64,000 nucleotides of DNA from Gemmatimonadota bacterium (lineage in GTDB: Bacteria; Gemmatimonadota; Gemmatimonadetes; Longimicrobiales; Gaopeijiaceae). Location of the stretch: assembly GCA_009838975.1 (NCBI GenBank), contig VXQO01000150.1, forward strand, positions 1 to 64,000. Reading direction: 5' to 3'. Position numbers and translations under genes: made by a program. The notes beneath the pieces were generated by a model. The model saw only the letters and a list, made by a program, of their open reading frames with translations. It was not told where the DNA came from and searched no databases. Below are positions 787 through 7,861 of the stretch, piece after piece (position 1 is the first letter of the stretch; every line of letters starts with the position of its first letter).

Positions 787-1348
787 CAGCTTCGGCTCCG
801 GCTTCGTCCGCGGTGGACAGCAACGACCTCATGAAACGCTCGACTTCGTCCGTATCCCACACCGCCTCGCCATGGCGGAGGACCAGTATCTGCCCCTCCC
901 GGTCCACGATCCAGGAAGTCGGCAGTCCCCGGAGCGCAAACGCGGCCGGCATCGGATCGATCTCGAGGTAGATCGGCAGGTCGTGGGAATGGAGCCGCAG
1001 GTGGCGTCGTACCGCCCTTTCGCCCTCGGCGGCCACGATCAGGAAGCTGACATCGGTGTCGGATAGGCGCTCGCCGAGTCGCTCGATCGTCTCCATCTCC
1101 CGAATGCACGGTGTGCACCAGGACGCCCAGAGGTTGATGAAGAGGACGCTTCCGCGGAACGCTGCGAGCTCGACCGGTTCGCCGTCGAGTGGACGAATCG
1201 TCCAGTCGTAGTCCGCGTGCCCGTGGATCGCGAGGCCATTCTCGGCCGGGAGGTTGTCCACAGTCGCGCGTTGGGCCGCGGCGGGTGCGTATCCCGGTGC
1301 GACCAGGATTGCCGCCAGGGCGGTGCGCGAGGCCAGGCGCGCGGTCAC
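698..1348 (-). CDS. Secreted TlpA-like thioredoxin-fold redoxin
   Basis: Periplasmic thiol-disulfide oxidoreductase or redoxin of the TlpA/ResA class, about 216 aa. The N-terminus looks like a signal peptide ending near APAAAQ. The active-site motif WCTPC is at about residues 77-81, preceded by the strand LFINLWAS, and a cis-proline loop (LPTSW) follows, as in thioredoxin folds. The GTG start at 1348 overlaps the TGA of the TonB receptor gene (GTGA), so the two are translationally coupled. The Pro/Ala-rich C-terminal tail is encoded over the end of the convergent permease gene. Coupling to the receptor suggests a role in envelope redox or metal handling linked to the receptor's cargo; that role is inferred. 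Confidence 0.85.
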   Translation of the reverse strand: MTARLASRTALAAILVAPGYAPAAAQRATVDNLPAENGLAIHGHADYDWTIRPLDGEPVELAAFRGSVLFINLWASWCTPCIREMETIERLGERLSDTDVSFLIVAAEGERAVRRHLRLHSHDLPIYLEIDPMPAAFALRGLPTSWIVDREGQILVLRHGEAVWDTDEVERFMRSLLSTADEAGAEAATPGASPARPTPAPRVPATSRTSPPAPPG

Positions 1349-3648
1349 CGGCTTGCTCCGTAGCGAAACCCGAGCATGACGTGCCGGCCCCGCATCGGGC
1401 CATACACGTATGCCGTGTCGAACGCGTCTCCGAATGGGTTGGCCGGATCTATGAGCGGACTGGGCTGCGTGAAGTTGAAGAGGTTCTTCACCGACAGGTA
1501 GAGCGCCGCGCCGTCTTCCAGACGCCACGTCGCTTGCGTGTTGTGAACTGAGTAGACCGGCGAGCGGTCGGGCCGGGCGAAGGGCTCGTCGTAGCTCGGA
1601 AGCCGCATCGGACCGGTCACGCTGCCGGTGTAGTCCACGGTCAGCGGGAGGGACCGCATGTTGTAGCTGGCGCTGAACACTCCGCGCACCCTCGGGGCGA
1701 AGAAGTCCTCTTCGCGGGCGCCCTCCGCGTCCATGAGGTACACGTCCTGCAAGGTGACCCCGGCGGAGTACAGCAGGCGGTCGAAGTTGACGTTCTGGTT
1801 GAAGGCCAGGGAGATGCCCCGGCTCACGGCGTGACCGCTGAGGTTGTCAAAGACGATCAGGTTGGGGTCGACGTCGTAGTCGGGGCGGATCCTGTTCGAG
1901 AAACGGGTGTGAAACAGGTCCAGGTCGATCATCATCGGGCTGGGCCCGAACTCGACGATCCGGTTCAGGTTCAGCGTGACGCTCCACGAGCGCTCCGGCG
2001 CCAGCTCCGACGCGATCACGACGTCGCGCGCGCCGGTGAGCGCGGCGTGGTCCTCGGTGAAGAGGTTGACGACGCGGAAGCCCGTCCCGGCGTTGAGGCG
2101 GATCGCGGTGTGCCCGGTCGCGTCCCACTTGAGGGCGATGCGCGGGGAAGCGATCACTCCGTGTTTGTCGTGATGGTCGGCACGGAGTCCACCGAGGGCC
2201 GTCAGCGCACCATCCGCCAGGCGGACCTCGTTCTGCGCGAGGATACCGGGGATGAATCGTCGGTCGGCGCGGACCGTGGCCGGGGTGTTGTCGTCGTAGG
2301 TCTGGTATCGGGCCGTGGCGCCGATCAACAGATCCTGCCGGCCGACCATCCGGCCCCAGAGAGCGTTCGCGAAGGCTATGTGCTGACTGGCATCGTAGCT
2401 GGAATCGCCGTACCAGGAGTCCTGGTCGTGCCACGCGTAGGAGCCCTCGAAACGGATGTCGGCTGACCAGCTCGGGAGATACGCGCCGAGCACTTCGAGC
2501 CGATTCGTGCGGATCGACTCGCCGTAGACGTTGCTGCTCCCGCGATCGGCAGCGGTCCAGGCCTCGACCCCGCCGAAGCGGTCCTCGTGGAGGTATCGGG
2601 TGGTGAGGGACGTCCGCCTCCGGCCCTCGGGGCTCCAATCCATCTTCGCGAAGACGACCCCGCGCCGGTTGAGCGGGAAGTCGGTGAAGCCGTCGCCGTT
2701 GTCGTCCACGAAGCGGGAATTGTACGCCACGTTGCCCGAAATGAACCCGCTCACGTCGCCCGGTTCGGTCGAGAAGGCGAAGTCGACGTTCCCTTCCGCA
2801 TCGGAGGTCCCCGAGGCGTCGAGCGCGAGGCGCGGGGTAAAACGCGGGTCCTTCGTGATGACGTTGATCACCCCGGCCATGGCTTCAGAGCCGTAGAGCG
2901 TCGACGAAGGGCCCTTGATGATCTCCACCTGCTGGATCAGCGCCGGATTGATCCCGTTCAGACCGTAAACAGACGCGAGAGAGCTCATGATCGGCATGCC
3001 GTCGATGAGCACCGCCGTGTACGGTCCCTCCATTCCGTTGATGCGGAGGTTGTTGGTGTAGCAGACCCCGCAGTCGACCTGCTGGTAGAGACCGTTCACG
3101 TAACTGATGGCCTCGACCAGGTTGTTCGTCGCGTTGCGTTGCAGGACGGACTGGGGCACCACGTTCACCTTCACCGGCGAAGCGGAGACGCTTGCAGCCT
3201 TCATCGTCCCGGTGACCGTGATGGCGTCGAGGGCCACCGGGTCGAGGGCCAGCGTGATCGCCAGTGGCGGGGCTTCCGCGCCCGCCTCGATTTCGACCTC
3301 TACCGCGCCGTACCCGTGGGCGGAGACGATGATGGTCACCACGCCGGCTTCGAGGCCGGCAAGCCGGAAACGGCCGTCGGCGTCGGCCCGGACACTGCGC
3401 GGAGATCCCGCCGGCGCCACGTCGGCGTAAGGGATGGCCCGGCCCGATTCGTCGACGATGCGACCCTGGATGGTCAGCGCAACGTCATCATCCGCCGGAA
3501 TCGGATCGGCTGCACTGGGCGGGGTCTGGGCAGCGGTGGGCACGGCCAAAGCCAGCGCGACGAGTGTTGACGCGACCGCGAAGAGCGCGCACGCCAGGCC
3601 GGATGCGCCTGCACGGCGCTGGCGGACTGGACGGCTGGACATGCTCAT
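1345..3648 (-). CDS. TonB-dependent outer-membrane receptor with N-terminal regulatory-like domain
   Basis: 767-aa ligand-gated outer-membrane channel. Order: signal peptide (about 1-40), a carboxypeptidase-regulatory-like beta-sandwich (about 58-125, with GRIVDESGRAIPYADV), a plug domain containing LIDGMPIMSSL and IIKGPSSTLYGSEAMAGVIN, then a long beta-barrel. A CGVC pair lies in the plug just before the TNNLRINGMEG segment, a pattern I associate with a receptor subgroup common in Bacteroidota. Start ATG 3648 is chosen as the most upstream; a second Met follows two codons later. A redoxin gene overlaps the 3' end, and a tandem TTAGG-N4-CCTAA operator lies just upstream, arguing for iron or manganese control. 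The substrate cannot be read from sequence. Confidence 0.93.
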   Translation of the reverse strand: MSMSSRPVRQRRAGASGLACALFAVASTLVALALAVPTAAQTPPSAADPIPADDDVALTIQGRIVDESGRAIPYADVAPAGSPRSVRADADGRFRLAGLEAGVVTIIVSAHGYGAVEVEIEAGAEAPPLAITLALDPVALDAITVTGTMKAASVSASPVKVNVVPQSVLQRNATNNLVEAISYVNGLYQQVDCGVCYTNNLRINGMEGPYTAVLIDGMPIMSSLASVYGLNGINPALIQQVEIIKGPSSTLYGSEAMAGVINVITKDPRFTPRLALDASGTSDAEGNVDFAFSTEPGDVSGFISGNVAYNSRFVDDNGDGFTDFPLNRRGVVFAKMDWSPEGRRRTSLTTRYLHEDRFGGVEAWTAADRGSSNVYGESIRTNRLEVLGAYLPSWSADIRFEGSYAWHDQDSWYGDSSYDASQHIAFANALWGRMVGRQDLLIGATARYQTYDDNTPATVRADRRFIPGILAQNEVRLADGALTALGGLRADHHDKHGVIASPRIALKWDATGHTAIRLNAGTGFRVVNLFTEDHAALTGARDVVIASELAPERSWSVTLNLNRIVEFGPSPMMIDLDLFHTRFSNRIRPDYDVDPNLIVFDNLSGHAVSRGISLAFNQNVNFDRLLYSAGVTLQDVYLMDAEGAREEDFFAPRVRGVFSASYNMRSLPLTVDYTGSVTGPMRLPSYDEPFARPDRSPVYSVHNTQATWRLEDGAALYLSVKNLFNFTQPSPLIDPANPFGDAFDTAYVYGPMRGRHVMLGFRYGASR

Positions 3649-3678
3649 TGATGGACGACTTGAACCCGGATTCCGAAT

Positions 3679-3715
3679 TTAGGCTTGCCTAATCCTGAGG
3701 TTTAGTTGCGCCTAA
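3679..3715. promoter_or_regulatory. Tandem palindromic operator upstream of the TonB receptor
   Basis: Two 14-bp inverted repeats lie 31-67 bp upstream of the receptor start. Site 1 (3679-3692) reads TTAGGCTTGCCTAA, a perfect TTAGG-N4-CCTAA palindrome. Site 2 (3702-3715) reads TTAGTTGCGCCTAA, with one mismatch in the left arm. They are spaced 23 bp start to start, about two helical turns, so both could be bound on one face. The pattern resembles operators of the DtxR/IdeR/MntR metalloregulator family. No regulator gene is adjacent, so the identity of the protein and metal is inference. Confidence 0.6.
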
Positions 3716-3737
3716 TCTACCTGAAGCCGAGACGCTG

Positions 3738-4310
3738 TCAACGCCCACTGCGGCCGGGAATCTCTTCCGGACTGGCGTCGGCCTGGCCGCGACGGCACCG
3801 GGCCATCGCGGAGCGGGCGTGGCGTATGCGCACCTTCACGGCGGCGGAGTCGGTCTTCACCGCCTGGTCGAACAGGCGCTCGACCTCGGGTCGCAACGAG
3901 GGGTCGCGGGCAGCCAACACCCCGAGGCCGTTGTAGGCCCACGTACGGATGAACGTGCGCTTCGACCCTGTCAGCGTCAGTAATGCGTCGCGCAGGCCGC
4001 CCAGCCCGTCGGCATCGAGGTGCATGTGCGGCAGGGTCTGCAGGATGTGCAACAGGGCGTCGGGGGCGATCGGCCGGCCCAACAGGCCCAGAAGTGCCGC
4101 CGCATTCCGCCCGCGTGGCGCCACACCCTGCTCCGCAAGGTGCTTGAGCACCCACGTGGCGCCCACCTGGAGTTCCATCTCGTCCGAGGCGGCGATGTCC
4201 ACGAGCAGGTCGACCGCGCTTTCCGGCGCATCCCGCACGGCCTCCGCCACCGCGCGGAAGGGTGCGACGCGCTTCCCGTCGTAGCTGCGCAGCGTGGCGG
4301 CGATGTCCAT
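3738..4310 (-). CDS. HEAT-repeat-like helical protein
   Basis: 190-aa, mostly alpha-helical soluble protein with no signal peptide. Helix pairs recur, such as AVDLLVDIAAS, LQVGATWVLKHLAE, and TFIRTWAYNGLGVLAARDPSLRPEVERLF, in the style of HEAT/armadillo repeats, which normally serve as protein-interaction scaffolds. The C-terminus is basic and low complexity. The ATG at 4310 is 22 bp from the divergent PIG-L gene start. I do not recognise a specific family; function unknown. The repeat reading rests on pattern only. Confidence 0.65.
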   Translation of the reverse strand: MDIAATLRSYDGKRVAPFRAVAEAVRDAPESAVDLLVDIAASDEMELQVGATWVLKHLAEQGVAPRGRNAAALLGLLGRPIAPDALLHILQTLPHMHLDADGLGGLRDALLTLTGSKRTFIRTWAYNGLGVLAARDPSLRPEVERLFDQAVKTDSAAVKVRIRHARSAMARCRRGQADASPEEIPGRSGR

Positions 4311-4332
4311 CGTGGATAGTTACCTTCCCGGA

Positions 4333-7029
4333 ATGAAGTACGGCAAGATTGTGACCGCGGCGGCCCTCACCGCCCTGGCCGGGTGGGTCGCTGCACCTGC
4401 GGGCACGCTGCTCACCGCCCAGCAGGACCAGGGAGTCGTGGGGGCCGGTCTGCACCTGCGCCAGCTCGACGGCGTGAAACGCGTACTGATGATCGCCGCC
4501 CACCCCGACGACGAGGACACCAGCCTGCTCGCCGCCCTCGCGCGGGGAATGGGGGCGGAGACGGCCTACCTGTCGCTCACACGCGGCGAAGGAGGGCAGA
4601 ACCTGATCGGCCCCCGGCTGCACGAGGGGCTGGGCGTGATCCGCACCGGCGAACTCCTTGCCGCCCGCGCCCTCGACGGCGGCGAGCAGTACTTCACCCG
4701 CGCCTTCGACTTCGGCTTCTCCAAGACCATCGAGGAGACGCTGGGCCTGTGGCCCTTCGAAGAGGTGTTGCGCGACGTGGTCTTCGTAGTGCGCGAGTTT
4801 CGGCCGCACGTTATCGTCTCGGTCTTTTCGGGGACGCCCCGCGACGGACATGGCCAGCACCAGCTCGCCGGCCGGGCCGCGCACGAGGCCTTCTCGGCCG
4901 CCGGCGACCCGAGCCGCTACCCCGAACTGGCCGCGCAGGGCGTCACTCCGTGGCAGCCGAGCAAGCTTTACACCTCGATGCGCTTCCTTCCTCAGGGCGC
5001 GACGGTGAGCGTGCCGACGGGCGCCTTCGACCCCCTGCTGGGCCGGTCTCACTTCCAACTGGCCATGGAGAGCCGCAGCCAGCACCGCTCCCAGGACATG
5101 GGTTCGGGCGAGTACCCGGGCCCGCGGTCGAGTTCGCTCATGCTGGTGGCGTCGGAGGTGGAGGGGCTGGAGGACGACGGCATCTTCGCGGGCGTCGACA
5201 CCACGCTCATCGGACAGTTCGGCACACCGCTGCCTGCGGGATGGCCCGCCGACACCGAACAGCGGATCGAGCGGTACCGTGGCGCCCTTGCCGATGCGGA
5301 GCGCGGGTTATCGGCGCTTCGGCCCGACGGAGCCGTGGCGGGCCTGGCCGTTGCGGCCGCGATCCTGCACGGCCTCCTGGACGACGCCCCCGGAGGCGAC
5401 GGGAAGCGCCTTCTGGAGCACCGTCTCGGCCAGCTCTCGGAGGCGCTTCTGGCGGCGGCCGGCGTCGTGACCGACGTCCGCGTGGGGCGCGAACTGCTCA
5501 CCCCCGGCGAATCGGTCGTGGTCGATGTGAACGTGTGGAACGGCGGCGGGTTCGACGTGTCGGGCGTGGACCCGCGCTTGCTGCTGCCGCCCGGATGGCA
5601 GGCCTCGCCCACCGAGGAGTCGTCGGTGGCGCCGTCCGGCTCGCCCTTCTTCCGGACGCCTGTGCCCCCGACGTCCGCCGATGGACGCATTCGGGGCGGC
5701 GAGATCGCGCGTTGGAGCTGGCGGGTCGCCGTGCCGGACGATGCGCCATCGTCGGCGCCGTACTACCTGCGCGTGCCCCGCGACGGCGCCATGCACGTGT
5801 GGCCGGACGACGGGGCGCTGTGGGCGCTGCCCTTTGATCCGCCGACCATCGTGGCGCATGTCGGGATGGCGCTTGCCCCGGGCAACGGGTCGGTGGGCGC
5901 GGTCGAGCTGGCGGTGGAGCGCCGGGGCGAGTACGTCGGGGTCGACCAGGCCGCCGGCGAGTACCGGGAGTCGGTCCTGGTCCTGCCGGCGATCAACGTC
6001 GAGGTGGACCCGCCGGCAATGGTGTGGCCGAGCGGGACCGACGGGGTGCGGGAGATCGACGTGGTGCTGACCAACACGTCGACGACGGCACGGTCGGGCG
6101 CGTTGCGGCTCGAAGCGCCGGACGGCTGGGCGGTCGAGCCCGCCAGCGCACCCTTCGCCCTGGAGCCGAACGGCGCAAGCGCTTCGTTCACCTTTGCGGT
6201 GACGCCCCGGGGCGCGGTCGCGGATGGCGCGCACGTCTTCCGAGCAATCGCGCGCGGTGCCGGCGGCGAGTTCGACACGCAGTTCGACATCGTCGACCAC
6301 CCCCACATCCCCAGGACGCTGATGGCGCGGGACGCCACGGTCCGCGTTCCCGTCTTCCCCGTCGCGGCGGACACCGAGCTGCGGGTCGGGTACGTCATGG
6401 GGTCCGGCGACGACGGCCCCGCGGCGCTGAGGCAGATGGGCATGGAGGTGGTCGAGCTGGACGAGGAGCGCGTGCGGAGCGGCGGCTTTGCCGGATTCGA
6501 CGTGATCGTGCTGGGAGTCCGCGCCTACGAGACGCGGCCCGATCTCGCTGCCGCAAACGCGGCGCTCCTCGACTTCGCGCGCGGCGGTGGCACCGTGGTC
6601 GCACAGTACAACAGGTACGAGTTCTCGGCGGGCGGGTTTGCGCCCTACCCGCTGACGATCAACCGGCCCCACGATCGCGTCACCGACGAAAACGCATCGG
6701 TGACGATGCTGGCGCCCGCGTCGCCCGTCTTCACCGCACCGAATCCCGTGGGGCCCGCCGACTTCGAGGGGTGGGTGCAGGAACGGGGGCTCTACTTCGC
6801 GGGAGAGTGGGACGACCGCTTCACGCCCGTGATGGAGATGGCCGACCCGGGCGAGGAGCCGAAGCGCGGGGGCCTTCTCGTGGCCGAGGTGGGCGACGGC
6901 CTCTACATCTACACCGGGCTGGCCTTCTTCCGGCAGTTCCCCGCGGGCGTGCCCGGCGCCTACCGGCTGTTCGCGAACCTGGTGTCGATGCGCGCCGAGG
7001 ACTGGAGGCGGGCCCGGCCGGTCAGCTGA
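4333..7029 (+). CDS. Large secreted PIG-L (LmbE-like) family deacetylase
   Basis: Zinc-dependent N-deacetylase of the PIG-L/LmbE superfamily, 898 aa. A signal peptide (about 1-29, ending LLTAQ) is followed by the catalytic domain. This carries the metal motif AHPDDED at about 56-62, a TRGEGGQNLIG segment, and a later HGQHQLAG zinc/catalytic histidine motif. The C-terminal two-thirds contain beta-rich regions resembling a NEW3-type sandwich (around the TNTSTTARSGALRLEAP stretch) and a ThuA/glutamine-amidotransferase-like segment near FDVIVLGVRAYETRPDL. Start ATG 4333 is preferred over an in-frame ATG at 4294 because it begins the signal peptide and avoids overlapping the divergent gene. The substrate is probably an N-acetylated sugar or glycan; the exact one is unknown. 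Confidence 0.9.
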   Translation: MKYGKIVTAAALTALAGWVAAPAGTLLTAQQDQGVVGAGLHLRQLDGVKRVLMIAAHPDDEDTSLLAALARGMGAETAYLSLTRGEGGQNLIGPRLHEGLGVIRTGELLAARALDGGEQYFTRAFDFGFSKTIEETLGLWPFEEVLRDVVFVVREFRPHVIVSVFSGTPRDGHGQHQLAGRAAHEAFSAAGDPSRYPELAAQGVTPWQPSKLYTSMRFLPQGATVSVPTGAFDPLLGRSHFQLAMESRSQHRSQDMGSGEYPGPRSSSLMLVASEVEGLEDDGIFAGVDTTLIGQFGTPLPAGWPADTEQRIERYRGALADAERGLSALRPDGAVAGLAVAAAILHGLLDDAPGGDGKRLLEHRLGQLSEALLAAAGVVTDVRVGRELLTPGESVVVDVNVWNGGGFDVSGVDPRLLLPPGWQASPTEESSVAPSGSPFFRTPVPPTSADGRIRGGEIARWSWRVAVPDDAPSSAPYYLRVPRDGAMHVWPDDGALWALPFDPPTIVAHVGMALAPGNGSVGAVELAVERRGEYVGVDQAAGEYRESVLVLPAINVEVDPPAMVWPSGTDGVREIDVVLTNTSTTARSGALRLEAPDGWAVEPASAPFALEPNGASASFTFAVTPRGAVADGAHVFRAIARGAGGEFDTQFDIVDHPHIPRTLMARDATVRVPVFPVAADTELRVGYVMGSGDDGPAALRQMGMEVVELDEERVRSGGFAGFDVIVLGVRAYETRPDLAAANAALLDFARGGGTVVAQYNRYEFSAGGFAPYPLTINRPHDRVTDENASVTMLAPASPVFTAPNPVGPADFEGWVQERGLYFAGEWDDRFTPVMEMADPGEEPKRGGLLVAEVGDGLYIYTGLAFFRQFPAGVPGAYRLFANLVSMRAEDWRRARPVS

Positions 7030-7048
7030 GCGCCGCCAACCACGGCTG

Positions 7049-7861
7049 TCAGCGGCCCGCCCGGGTCTCGATGAAGAGCACGCCGTCGCTTCCCCGGTGG
7101 CCGTAGCGGAGCGACGCCGCGGGCCCGTAGAGGAATTGCACCGAGAAGATGTCGTGAGTGCTCATCCGGTAGACCCAGTCGGACGCGCTGGCGCTCATGA
7201 GCACGCCGTCCACCACTACGGCCGCGCAGCTCCGCCCCCGAAGGCTCAGGTTGGAGACCATCAGGCAACCCGGGTCGCCCGGGTCGCGGCCGTGCCTGAA
7301 GCGTGAGCGCGGCATGTACCGGCTGATGAGCACCTGGTCGAGGCTGAAGTAGCGCTCGCGCAGTTCGTCCATCTCGACCGGACCGATCGTGCCGCGCGTC
7401 GAGATTCCCATCGCCCTGTTGGCGATGTCCTCACGGCCGATCACCTCCACCTCGATCCCCTCGATCGAGACCGGACCCGGGGTCAGGTAGAGCGCGAGCA
7501 CCTCCTGCCCGTTGATCGGCACCTCGGCCTCGAGGTTCTCGTAGCCCAGGCGCATCACGCGGATCGGGTAGTATCCCGCCGGGATGTCCTCGAAGCGGAA
7601 GTAGCCGAGCTCGTCGGTGACCGTGCTCCGGTTCAGCGCGGGGATGGCCACGATCGCCACAGCGACGGGCAGGCCGTACACGTTGTCGAGCACTTCGCCT
7701 TCCGCCGTGATGCCGCCGCTATCGTCCTCGTCCTGGGCGGCCAGGGCAACAGGGGACGCGAGGGCCGCCGCGCACAGGAGGAGGGCATGAACCCCCCGAC
7801 GCCCGACACGCGCCGCCGTCCGCGCGATCATCTTGCCGTGCCGCACAACGCCGTCCTTCAT
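7049..7861 (-). CDS. CarboxypepD-regulatory-like plus TonB plug domain protein
   Basis: About 270-aa envelope protein. A signal peptide (hydrophobic HALLLCAAALASPVALA) leads into a carboxypeptidase-regulatory-like domain (GEVLDNVYGLPVAVAIVAI ... LGYFRFEDIPAGYYPIRV). This is followed by a plug-like segment with VVDGVLM and a final YGHRGSDGVLFIETR, the usual ending of a TonB plug. No barrel follows, so it is not a transporter by itself. Such short plug-only proteins are frequent in Gemmatimonadota and Bacteroidota; role unknown. Start is ATG 7861 or ATG 7831 (same frame). It sits 26 bp downstream of the phosphofructokinase gene on the same strand. Confidence 0.8.
   Translation of the reverse strand: MKDGVVRHGKMIARTAARVGRRGVHALLLCAAALASPVALAAQDEDDSGGITAEGEVLDNVYGLPVAVAIVAIPALNRSTVTDELGYFRFEDIPAGYYPIRVMRLGYENLEAEVPINGQEVLALYLTPGPVSIEGIEVEVIGREDIANRAMGISTRGTIGPVEMDELRERYFSLDQVLISRYMPRSRFRHGRDPGDPGCLMVSNLSLRGRSCAAVVVDGVLMSASASDWVYRMSTHDIFSVQFLYGPAASLRYGHRGSDGVLFIETRAGR

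Follow-up and report, generated by a model that had tools for sequence, protein, structure and literature searches.

The closest described system is a two-gene locus of Stenotrophomonas maltophilia, in which MntR controls a TonB-dependent receptor with a CQNC motif in its plug and a periplasmic thioredoxin-fold protein, together termed TBDR-pTFP (PMC13217887, May 2026). According to the sections of that paper drawn on here, a reporter in Stenotrophomonas showed activity only when Mn and Fe were limiting together, and 80 nM Mn2+ silenced it. In the authors' view, the CQNC motif may be reduced by the partner, whose function, they state, is still to be determined (PMC13217887). As for the regulators, the excerpts considered of a second study describe PgMntR of Porphyromonas gingivalis as a DtxR-family protein with twin FeoA domains, which lies in one operon with FeoB2 (FB2), a manganese transporter, and whose DNA binding is enhanced by manganese (PMC4805248). 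A receptor-redoxin operon of a Gemmatimonadota bacterium (assembly GCA_009838975.1, contig VXQO01000150.1) is compared here with these systems. It lies near the beginning of the window, the whole analysed stretch of 64,000 nucleotides, which is the start of contig 81 in a genome of 4.5 Mb and 162 contigs. The operon is likely to serve metal-repressed uptake across the outer membrane, most likely of Mn2+, with the redoxin as a partner. To our knowledge, little is known about the active passage of Mn2+ across outer membranes.

Both genes are on the minus strand. The first (1345-3648) encodes a TonB-dependent receptor of 767 residues with a CarboxypepD_reg N-terminal domain, a plug and a barrel. 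PF07715 and PF00593 matched over their cut-offs, and the protein belongs to a subfamily with a CxxC motif in the plug. The second gene (698-1348) has a GTG start and encodes a TlpA/ResA-like redoxin of 216 residues, with AhpC-TSA/Redoxin matches in Pfam, a signal-peptide-like N-terminus and a WCTPC active site (1106-1120, minus strand). The receptor stop and the redoxin start have GTGA in common, a 4-bp overlap. The plug motif, CGVC, is encoded at 3061-3072 on the minus strand (residues 193-196) and, in a structure model of the receptor with a predicted local distance difference test score of 84.4, is placed in a plug loop between the strands 187-191 and 199-203. Besides this pair, the receptor contains only C20, near the N-terminus in what appears by eye to be the signal-peptide region, and the only cysteines of the redoxin are Cys78 and Cys81. 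A sequence-only reading of the window had named the overlap, the plug pair and the secreted WCTPC redoxin, all of which were borne out, but it had ended the redoxin gene too early: the frame runs on to 698.

Two palindromes precede the receptor gene. Operator 1 (TTAGTTGCGCCTAA, 3702-3715) has one mismatch to TTAGG-N4-CCTAA, with TTAG...CTAA intact, and operator 2 (TTAGGCTTGCCTAA, 3679-3692), downstream of it and 30 bp ahead of the start codon, is perfect; neither is assigned a strand. The tandem spacing of 23 bp that the same reading had given is correct, although one of the two copies is imperfect. A promoter scan predicted a sigma-70-like promoter, TTGACA-16-TAGATT (3741-3714, minus strand), as a single site with 10/12 matches, where shuffled sequence gave a mean of 0.1. 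Its -35 box TTGACA occupies 3736-3741 and its -10 box TAGATT 3714-3719, the latter having 2 bp in common with operator 1. A repressor on either operator would be expected to cover the start region. Sites with up to two mismatches are at chance level in the window (4 found, 4.2 expected). In the whole genome, the perfect palindrome occurs twice, at 3679-3692 and at C24:15014, and sites with at most one mismatch number 5 against 54 for the reversed pattern, 2 of the 5 lying within 37 bp in the receptor promoter. A chance origin of the palindromes was rejected because of this rarity and their conservation upstream of orthologues. Tandem operators 21-26 bp apart are found in the window and in loci L022, L023, L024, L025, L026, L029 and L034. 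In L022 and L023 the second copy departs from the palindrome at two positions, and in L034 each copy does so at one. The two sites of L030, with one mismatch each, are 35 bp apart.

For the comparison across phyla, receptor loci were sorted into 14 from Gemmatimonadota, 44 Bacteroidota loci with a CxVC plug (including one CNIC plug and one Rhodothermales metagenome-assembled genome, L035, whose plug was missed by the first motif expression), 13 loci with a CxNC plug (one CQTC) and 51 control TonB receptors; L057 was placed in no group. The palindrome, counted as TTAG-N6-CTAA from -200 to +120 of the open frame, was present in 9/14, 34/44, 1/13 and 0/51 loci, respectively. A thioredoxin-fold gene lay within 1.5 kb in 14/14 Gemmatimonadota and 26/44 Bacteroidota loci but in 0/51 controls, and a DtxR-family gene in 2/14, 16/44, 1/13 (CxNC) and 1/51. 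The plug CxxC was found in 14/14, 44/44, 13/13 and 0/51, the CxNC and control groups having been split by this motif itself. Fisher tests of 58 against 51 loci gave 1e-17 for the palindrome, 4e-16 for the thioredoxin-fold gene and 3e-5 for the DtxR neighbour, with controls that are weaker tblastn matches (L062-L113 without L079) and no random sample, and with thioredoxin and DtxR seeds that originate from the loci under test, a bias towards detection there. The first set of relatives, including the controls, was drawn from the best 80 of 523 matches; L156-L185 were read with flanks of 1.5 kb and the other loci with flanks of up to 5 kb. In the second locus set, 58 genomes had a match and 30 gave loci, all of which were used; G298, one of the other 28, was read as L037. 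The closest named locus among these best 80 of 523 relatives, L034 from a Longimicrobiales metagenome-assembled genome, has a receptor 71% identical to the one described here. In L036, L046 and L177 no palindrome, thioredoxin, DtxR or importer was seen; L046 is truncated by the end of its contig.

The sequence-only reading had tied its case to the conservation of the palindrome upstream of orthologous receptors and to that of the plug cysteines and the redoxin neighbour. The palindrome is conserved in both phyla at the frequencies given above. The plug pair is kept in 58/58 receptors, and a thioredoxin-fold neighbour in all Gemmatimonadota loci and most Bacteroidota loci. A conserved inverted repeat over the putative promoter is what a DtxR/MntR regulon would show, and the proposal that it is a DtxR/MntR-style operator marking metal-repressed uptake appears well supported by its conservation, its sharing with feoAB and the DtxR genes near 16/44 Bacteroidota loci.

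C193 and C196 are invariant in 35/35 aligned receptors. The Gemmatimonadota plugs carry CGVC (13/14) or CAVC (1/14), not the CQNC of the type in PMC13217887. In 13/14 Gemmatimonadota and 28/44 Bacteroidota receptors, the stretch that begins 150 residues ahead of the motif and runs to the end of the protein has no other cysteine. A FastTree phylogeny of 98 sequences with midpoint root (72 CxxC receptors and 26 controls, a random draw from the 50, out of 51, that a length filter retained) placed 72/72 CxxC receptors in one clade apart from the controls, with support of 1.0; no pair among the 72 is at least 90% identical over 500 residues. Within it, support was 0.97 for the Gemmatimonadota, 0.87 for Gemmatimonadota plus Bacteroidota CxVC receptors, and 0.999 for a separate clade of the CxNC receptors with a gammaproteobacterial CQNC receptor. 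The latter comes from L223, where a CQNC receptor that joins the CxxC clade, a CAPC thioredoxin-fold protein, a DtxR-family gene and an Nramp gene stand together, and where no TTAG-N6-CTAA was found. Gammaproteobacterial genomes were sampled in two draws of 369, with one match from each; that of the first, L192, has no plug CxxC by the motif expression. The matches in two plasmid searches were Bacteroidota relatives. The loci with CxNC-plug receptors (one CQTC), read in Bacteroidota, are L049-L056, L058-L061 and L079, and 12/13 have no DtxR neighbour. Small His-rich proteins that look secreted by eye are encoded ahead of the receptors of L054, L059 and L079.

The matches listed to the NCBIfam SusC/RagA, siderophore, haem and B12 receptor models (25 of 30) were all below cut-off. 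The top folds in Foldseek were CirA and BtuB, but many TonB receptors score alike, so no ligand is indicated. In profile alignment, the CGVC falls opposite a segment in the plug of the colicin I receptor, a segment which we take to be an apical loop. In searches against solved structures, no plug CxxC was seen in the top alignments.

The second perfect palindrome of the own genome, recovered by the genome-wide scan, directly precedes a DtxR-like gene, whose product matches PF02742 and has two FeoA stretches; the gene for FeoB comes next. The same arrangement recurs in relatives. Receptor orthologues, called at E <= 1e-60, were found in 13 of 298 genomes of the phylum and in 2 of 18 of the own genus, and the operon is therefore patchy. 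The own genome and the 12 further receptor genomes hold 22 perfect sites: 10 in receptor promoters, 9 at DtxR-FeoA/feoB, 1 at a truncated receptor copy and 2 at a di-haem oxidoreductase (DHOR) operon; for the 12 further genomes only, 20 sites divide into 9, 8, 1 and 2. At the DtxR-FeoA site of G197, feoB was not seen and the contig ends. Four of the 12 (G096, G006, G134 and G281) have no perfect palindrome. Among the receptor-less genomes of the same genus or family, 19/20 carry a perfect site, and 18 of their 21 sites precede DtxR-FeoA/feoB (in L207 by a FeoA-only match plus FeoB). Of the remaining three, one precedes a multicopper oxidase-ZIP pair, one lies at a gene for what looks by eye like an outer-membrane protein, and one lies at nothing recognised. 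Since receptor-less relatives have the site at DtxR-FeoA/feoB, the receptor operon has probably joined a pre-existing metal regulon. A single palindrome in G037 (at 2941, with numbering along the reverse-complemented L154) heads genes for DtxR-FeoA (3003-4031), FeoB (4028-6268), DtxR (6279-6980), the redoxin (6961-7488) and the receptor (to 9679, start not fixed). All are on the same strand and overlap or nearly touch, apparently forming one operon. Near the receptors of L183 and L058 there are FeoB matches as well.

The DtxR-FeoA protein of L007 (4905-6011, minus strand) has a hydrophobic N-terminal segment by eye and two FeoA stretches, with no PF01325 match at E <= 0.001; it is perhaps a membrane-bound regulator or a FeoA-type partner. 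In the receptor-bearing G082, tandem perfect palindromes 23 bp apart (contig C13; L150:3026-3062) precede a DHOR di-haem oxidoreductase-Rieske operon (3075-4774), a further regulon member. On C61 of G197 (L143:3782-4046), a second palindrome stands by a truncated duplicate of the receptor gene, of which only the initial portion is present; the intact copy is about 3.5 kb away. In the receptor-less G034 (C22; L224:2246-4539), a palindrome is followed by a multicopper oxidase and then a ZIP-like transporter (Zip 34.3 bits; cut-off 35.1).

As for the metal, the regulators themselves are informative. Met10/Cys102 are described as iron-type and Asp8/Glu99 as manganese-type ligands in the part of PMC4805248 drawn on here. 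Aligned with IdeR, the DtxR protein of the own genome has Asp12 at the Met10 position and Glu104 at the Cys102 position, and 7/7 aligned regulators have Asp (5) or Asn (2) together with Glu (7) in place of the iron-type DtxR/IdeR pair. Among solved structures, their best relative is 5zr4, which is annotated as a metal-dependent transcriptional regulator and is presumably the MntR of Mycobacterium tuberculosis. The importers encoded near receptors are NRAMP (L040, L168), ZIP (L039, L045, L048, L172, L058) or FeoB, with NRAMP or ZIP in 6/44 Bacteroidota loci. Moreover, Fur-family genes are present in 13/13 receptor genomes, and their products could serve iron there. Because of the MntR-type ligands, the NRAMP/ZIP/FeoB importers, the PgMntR-FB2 precedent and the ubiquity of Fur, the sequence evidence points to Mn, or to Mn together with Fe, rather than to iron alone, without amounting to proof. 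The sequence-only reading had named no metal.

Nevertheless, a number of observations weigh against a manganese-repressed uptake operon with a dedicated redoxin. FeoB is usually an importer of Fe2+, and cysteine is an unusual ligand for manganese. Five of the 14 Gemmatimonadota receptors (L027, L028, L031, L032 and L033) have no TTAG-N6-CTAA in the scanned interval, although in L032 feoAB comes first and a palindrome heads the operon, and L028 has a one-mismatch site. The search for a DtxR/MntR homologue in the own genome found one PF01325 gene, which lies on another contig (C111). The di-haem protein and the multicopper oxidase-ZIP pair also carry sites. Three NRAMP-family matches over cut-off (best 2e-35) occur in the own genome without a perfect palindrome, and FeoB therefore need not be its Mn importer; an NRAMP-family match is present in 11/13 receptor genomes and in neither G197 nor G006. 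Iron is favoured by the DHOR site and by what FeoB usually transports. Accounting for the same operon by iron, a DtxR/IdeR-like repressor would control import of a ferric chelate, the redoxin would reduce or release Fe3+, and FeoB, the ferrous iron transporter by its Pfam name, would take up Fe2+. The perfect sites at DtxR-FeoA/feoB in the own genome and its relatives with and without receptor, the joint feoAB-dtxR-redoxin-receptor operon of one genome and the tandem sites of the DHOR operon in G082 are consistent with it. Set against the Asp(Asn)/Glu pair in place of Met/Cys, the identity of the best solved relative, the NRAMP and ZIP neighbours, the Fur-family genes and the manganese role of the twin-FeoA protein in P. 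gingivalis (from the excerpts of PMC4805248), an iron-specific operon seems somewhat unlikely. Import of another thiol-binding metal or thiol ligand (Cu, Zn or a thiol chelator) under a DtxR-type repressor is quite improbable: by family background CxxC often binds Cu or Zn, ZIP neighbours and the site-bearing multicopper oxidase-ZIP pair of G034 occur, and the zinc receptor ZnuD is among the many fold-search matches, but MntR-type DtxR-family regulators, feoB and NRAMP are what recur, no search having been aimed at Cu or Zn regulators or their sites.

The other contrary points concern the redoxin. In 18/44 Bacteroidota loci no thioredoxin was detected within 1.5 kb, and 5 of the 26 Bacteroidota thioredoxin genes (L159, L162, L165-L167) are on the opposite strand. 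The main contrary fact is that the CxNC sister loci keep the cysteine pair with a thioredoxin gene within 1.5 kb in 0/13 and a palindrome in 1/13, which weakens the case for the redoxin as reductant. These loci would suit a general periplasmic thiol reductase for haem or copper protein maturation that is merely co-induced, with CGVC binding metal without redox chemistry; TlpA/ResA relatives are indeed known, as family background, for cytochrome and oxidase maturation. Such a bystander role is conceivable but doubtful, since the redoxin tracks the receptor almost one to one and other thioredoxin-type proteins fill its place in Bacteroidota and in the gammaproteobacterial CQNC locus. Called at E <= 1e-20, the redoxin is present in 14/298 phylum genomes, namely the 13 receptor genomes and, out of the other 285, only G051; the 11 kb read at the G051 copy contain no receptor match. 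This co-occurrence also makes a chance neighbourhood unlikely. In L038, L044, L157 and L158 of the Bacteroidota, a Pfam scan found Thioredoxin_2/Thioredoxin_7-type proteins in the redoxin slot, with motifs including WCSVC, WCKFC, WCTYC and WCGWC.

In L028 (2511-4001, minus strand) the operon redoxin is fused to DsbD_N, the electron-passing domain of DsbD, and a reducing role is therefore favoured. That CGVC is the sole cysteine pair of the receptor beyond C20 and that several thioredoxin families occupy the slot point the same way. It is plausible that the redoxin keeps thiols of the receptor or of its ligand reduced, as the sequence-only reading had proposed. In L176 (453-1358, plus strand) and L178 (3916-4842, minus strand), and by eye similarly in L179 and L185, a gene for a pyridine nucleotide-disulphide oxidoreductase (Pyr_redox_2 in the first two) lies 112-267 bp upstream of the receptor on the same strand; such a gene would fit a thiol redox role.

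Taken as a manganese uptake operon, the system could work as follows. With sufficient cytoplasmic metal (most likely Mn2+, possibly Mn2+/Fe2+), an MntR-type repressor of the DtxR family would sit on the tandem palindromes and block transcription, as the observed operator, promoter-like sequence and regulator genes suggest. When the metal is scarce, the CxxC-plug receptor would be made and would import the metal or a metal chelate into the periplasm, and the co-translated redoxin would keep the CGVC pair, or metal bound there, reduced. The route would be completed by an importer of the inner membrane under the same type of repressor: FeoB and its twin-FeoA DtxR-like partner in this genome, NRAMP or ZIP in some relatives. 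The shared operators and gene neighbourhoods point to such a route. In a bolder version, which we consider unlikely, the plug CxxC would be a redox gate: chelated Mn(III) or Fe(III) would be reduced or released at the CGVC dithiol, the redoxin, fed by DsbD-type electron flow, would recharge it, and Mn2+ or Fe2+ would pass to FeoB, NRAMP or ZIP. If true, TonB receptors with a dedicated thiol reductase would form a class that recurs in at least three phyla. Import by way of a receptor that has a redox-active cysteine pair and its own thiol reductase would, if real, be an unusual mechanism. The named cultured carriers among Bacteroidota, e.g., Chryseobacterium vrystaatense (L038), allow testing. 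Elsewhere in the window (4294-7029), a PIG-L deacetylase with an NPCBM-associated domain is transcribed away from the receptor operon.

Compared with known proteins, the redoxin resembles TlpA/ResA in its NCBIfam matches, WCxPC motif and signal-peptide-like N-terminus, but it stays far below the curated cut-offs (ResA 66.6 against 170 bits, TlpA 65.5 against 230). The regulators are like DtxR/IdeR and MntR/ScaR in domain order, DNA-site style and PF01325/PF02742 matches, with a ligand pair as in MntR and unlike that of DtxR. Similar to PgMntR-FeoB2, a DtxR-like protein with twin FeoA is encoded with FeoB; in contrast to PgMntR, the Gemmatimonadota protein has a hydrophobic N-terminal stretch (by eye) and lacks PF01325 at E <= 0.001, and no TonB receptor is named as a target of PgMntR in the excerpts considered (PMC4805248).

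In the searches of open-access full text, PMC13217887 was the only paper recognised on such a receptor-partner pair, and the CGVC branch, its operator, the feoAB link and the spread over two phyla were not found. The stem 'bacteroid' is absent from the main text of PMC13217887, and the legend of its Fig. 6 names Lysobacterales, Sphingomonadales and Opitutales, whereas the hosts here are Gemmatimonadota and Bacteroidota. The module is thereby extended from a few orders to these phyla, with FeoB tied in as the likely inner-membrane partner. The operon has in common with the S. maltophilia TBDR-pTFP a plug-CxxC receptor, an adjacent periplasmic thioredoxin-fold partner, whose thioredoxin-type family differs among loci, the two-gene layout and a site of DtxR-family type. 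It differs, as far as the sections drawn on describe that locus (PMC13217887), in having CGVC where S. maltophilia has CQNC, a TlpA/ResA-like redoxin with WCTPC as partner, a tandem TTAGG-N4-CCTAA operator in place of a 25-bp palindromic box, and an operator common with DtxR-FeoA/feoB in place of a position beside mntH. On sequence grounds, the CGVC system forms a new branch within a kind of system described only recently, the idea being already in print for its sister branch.

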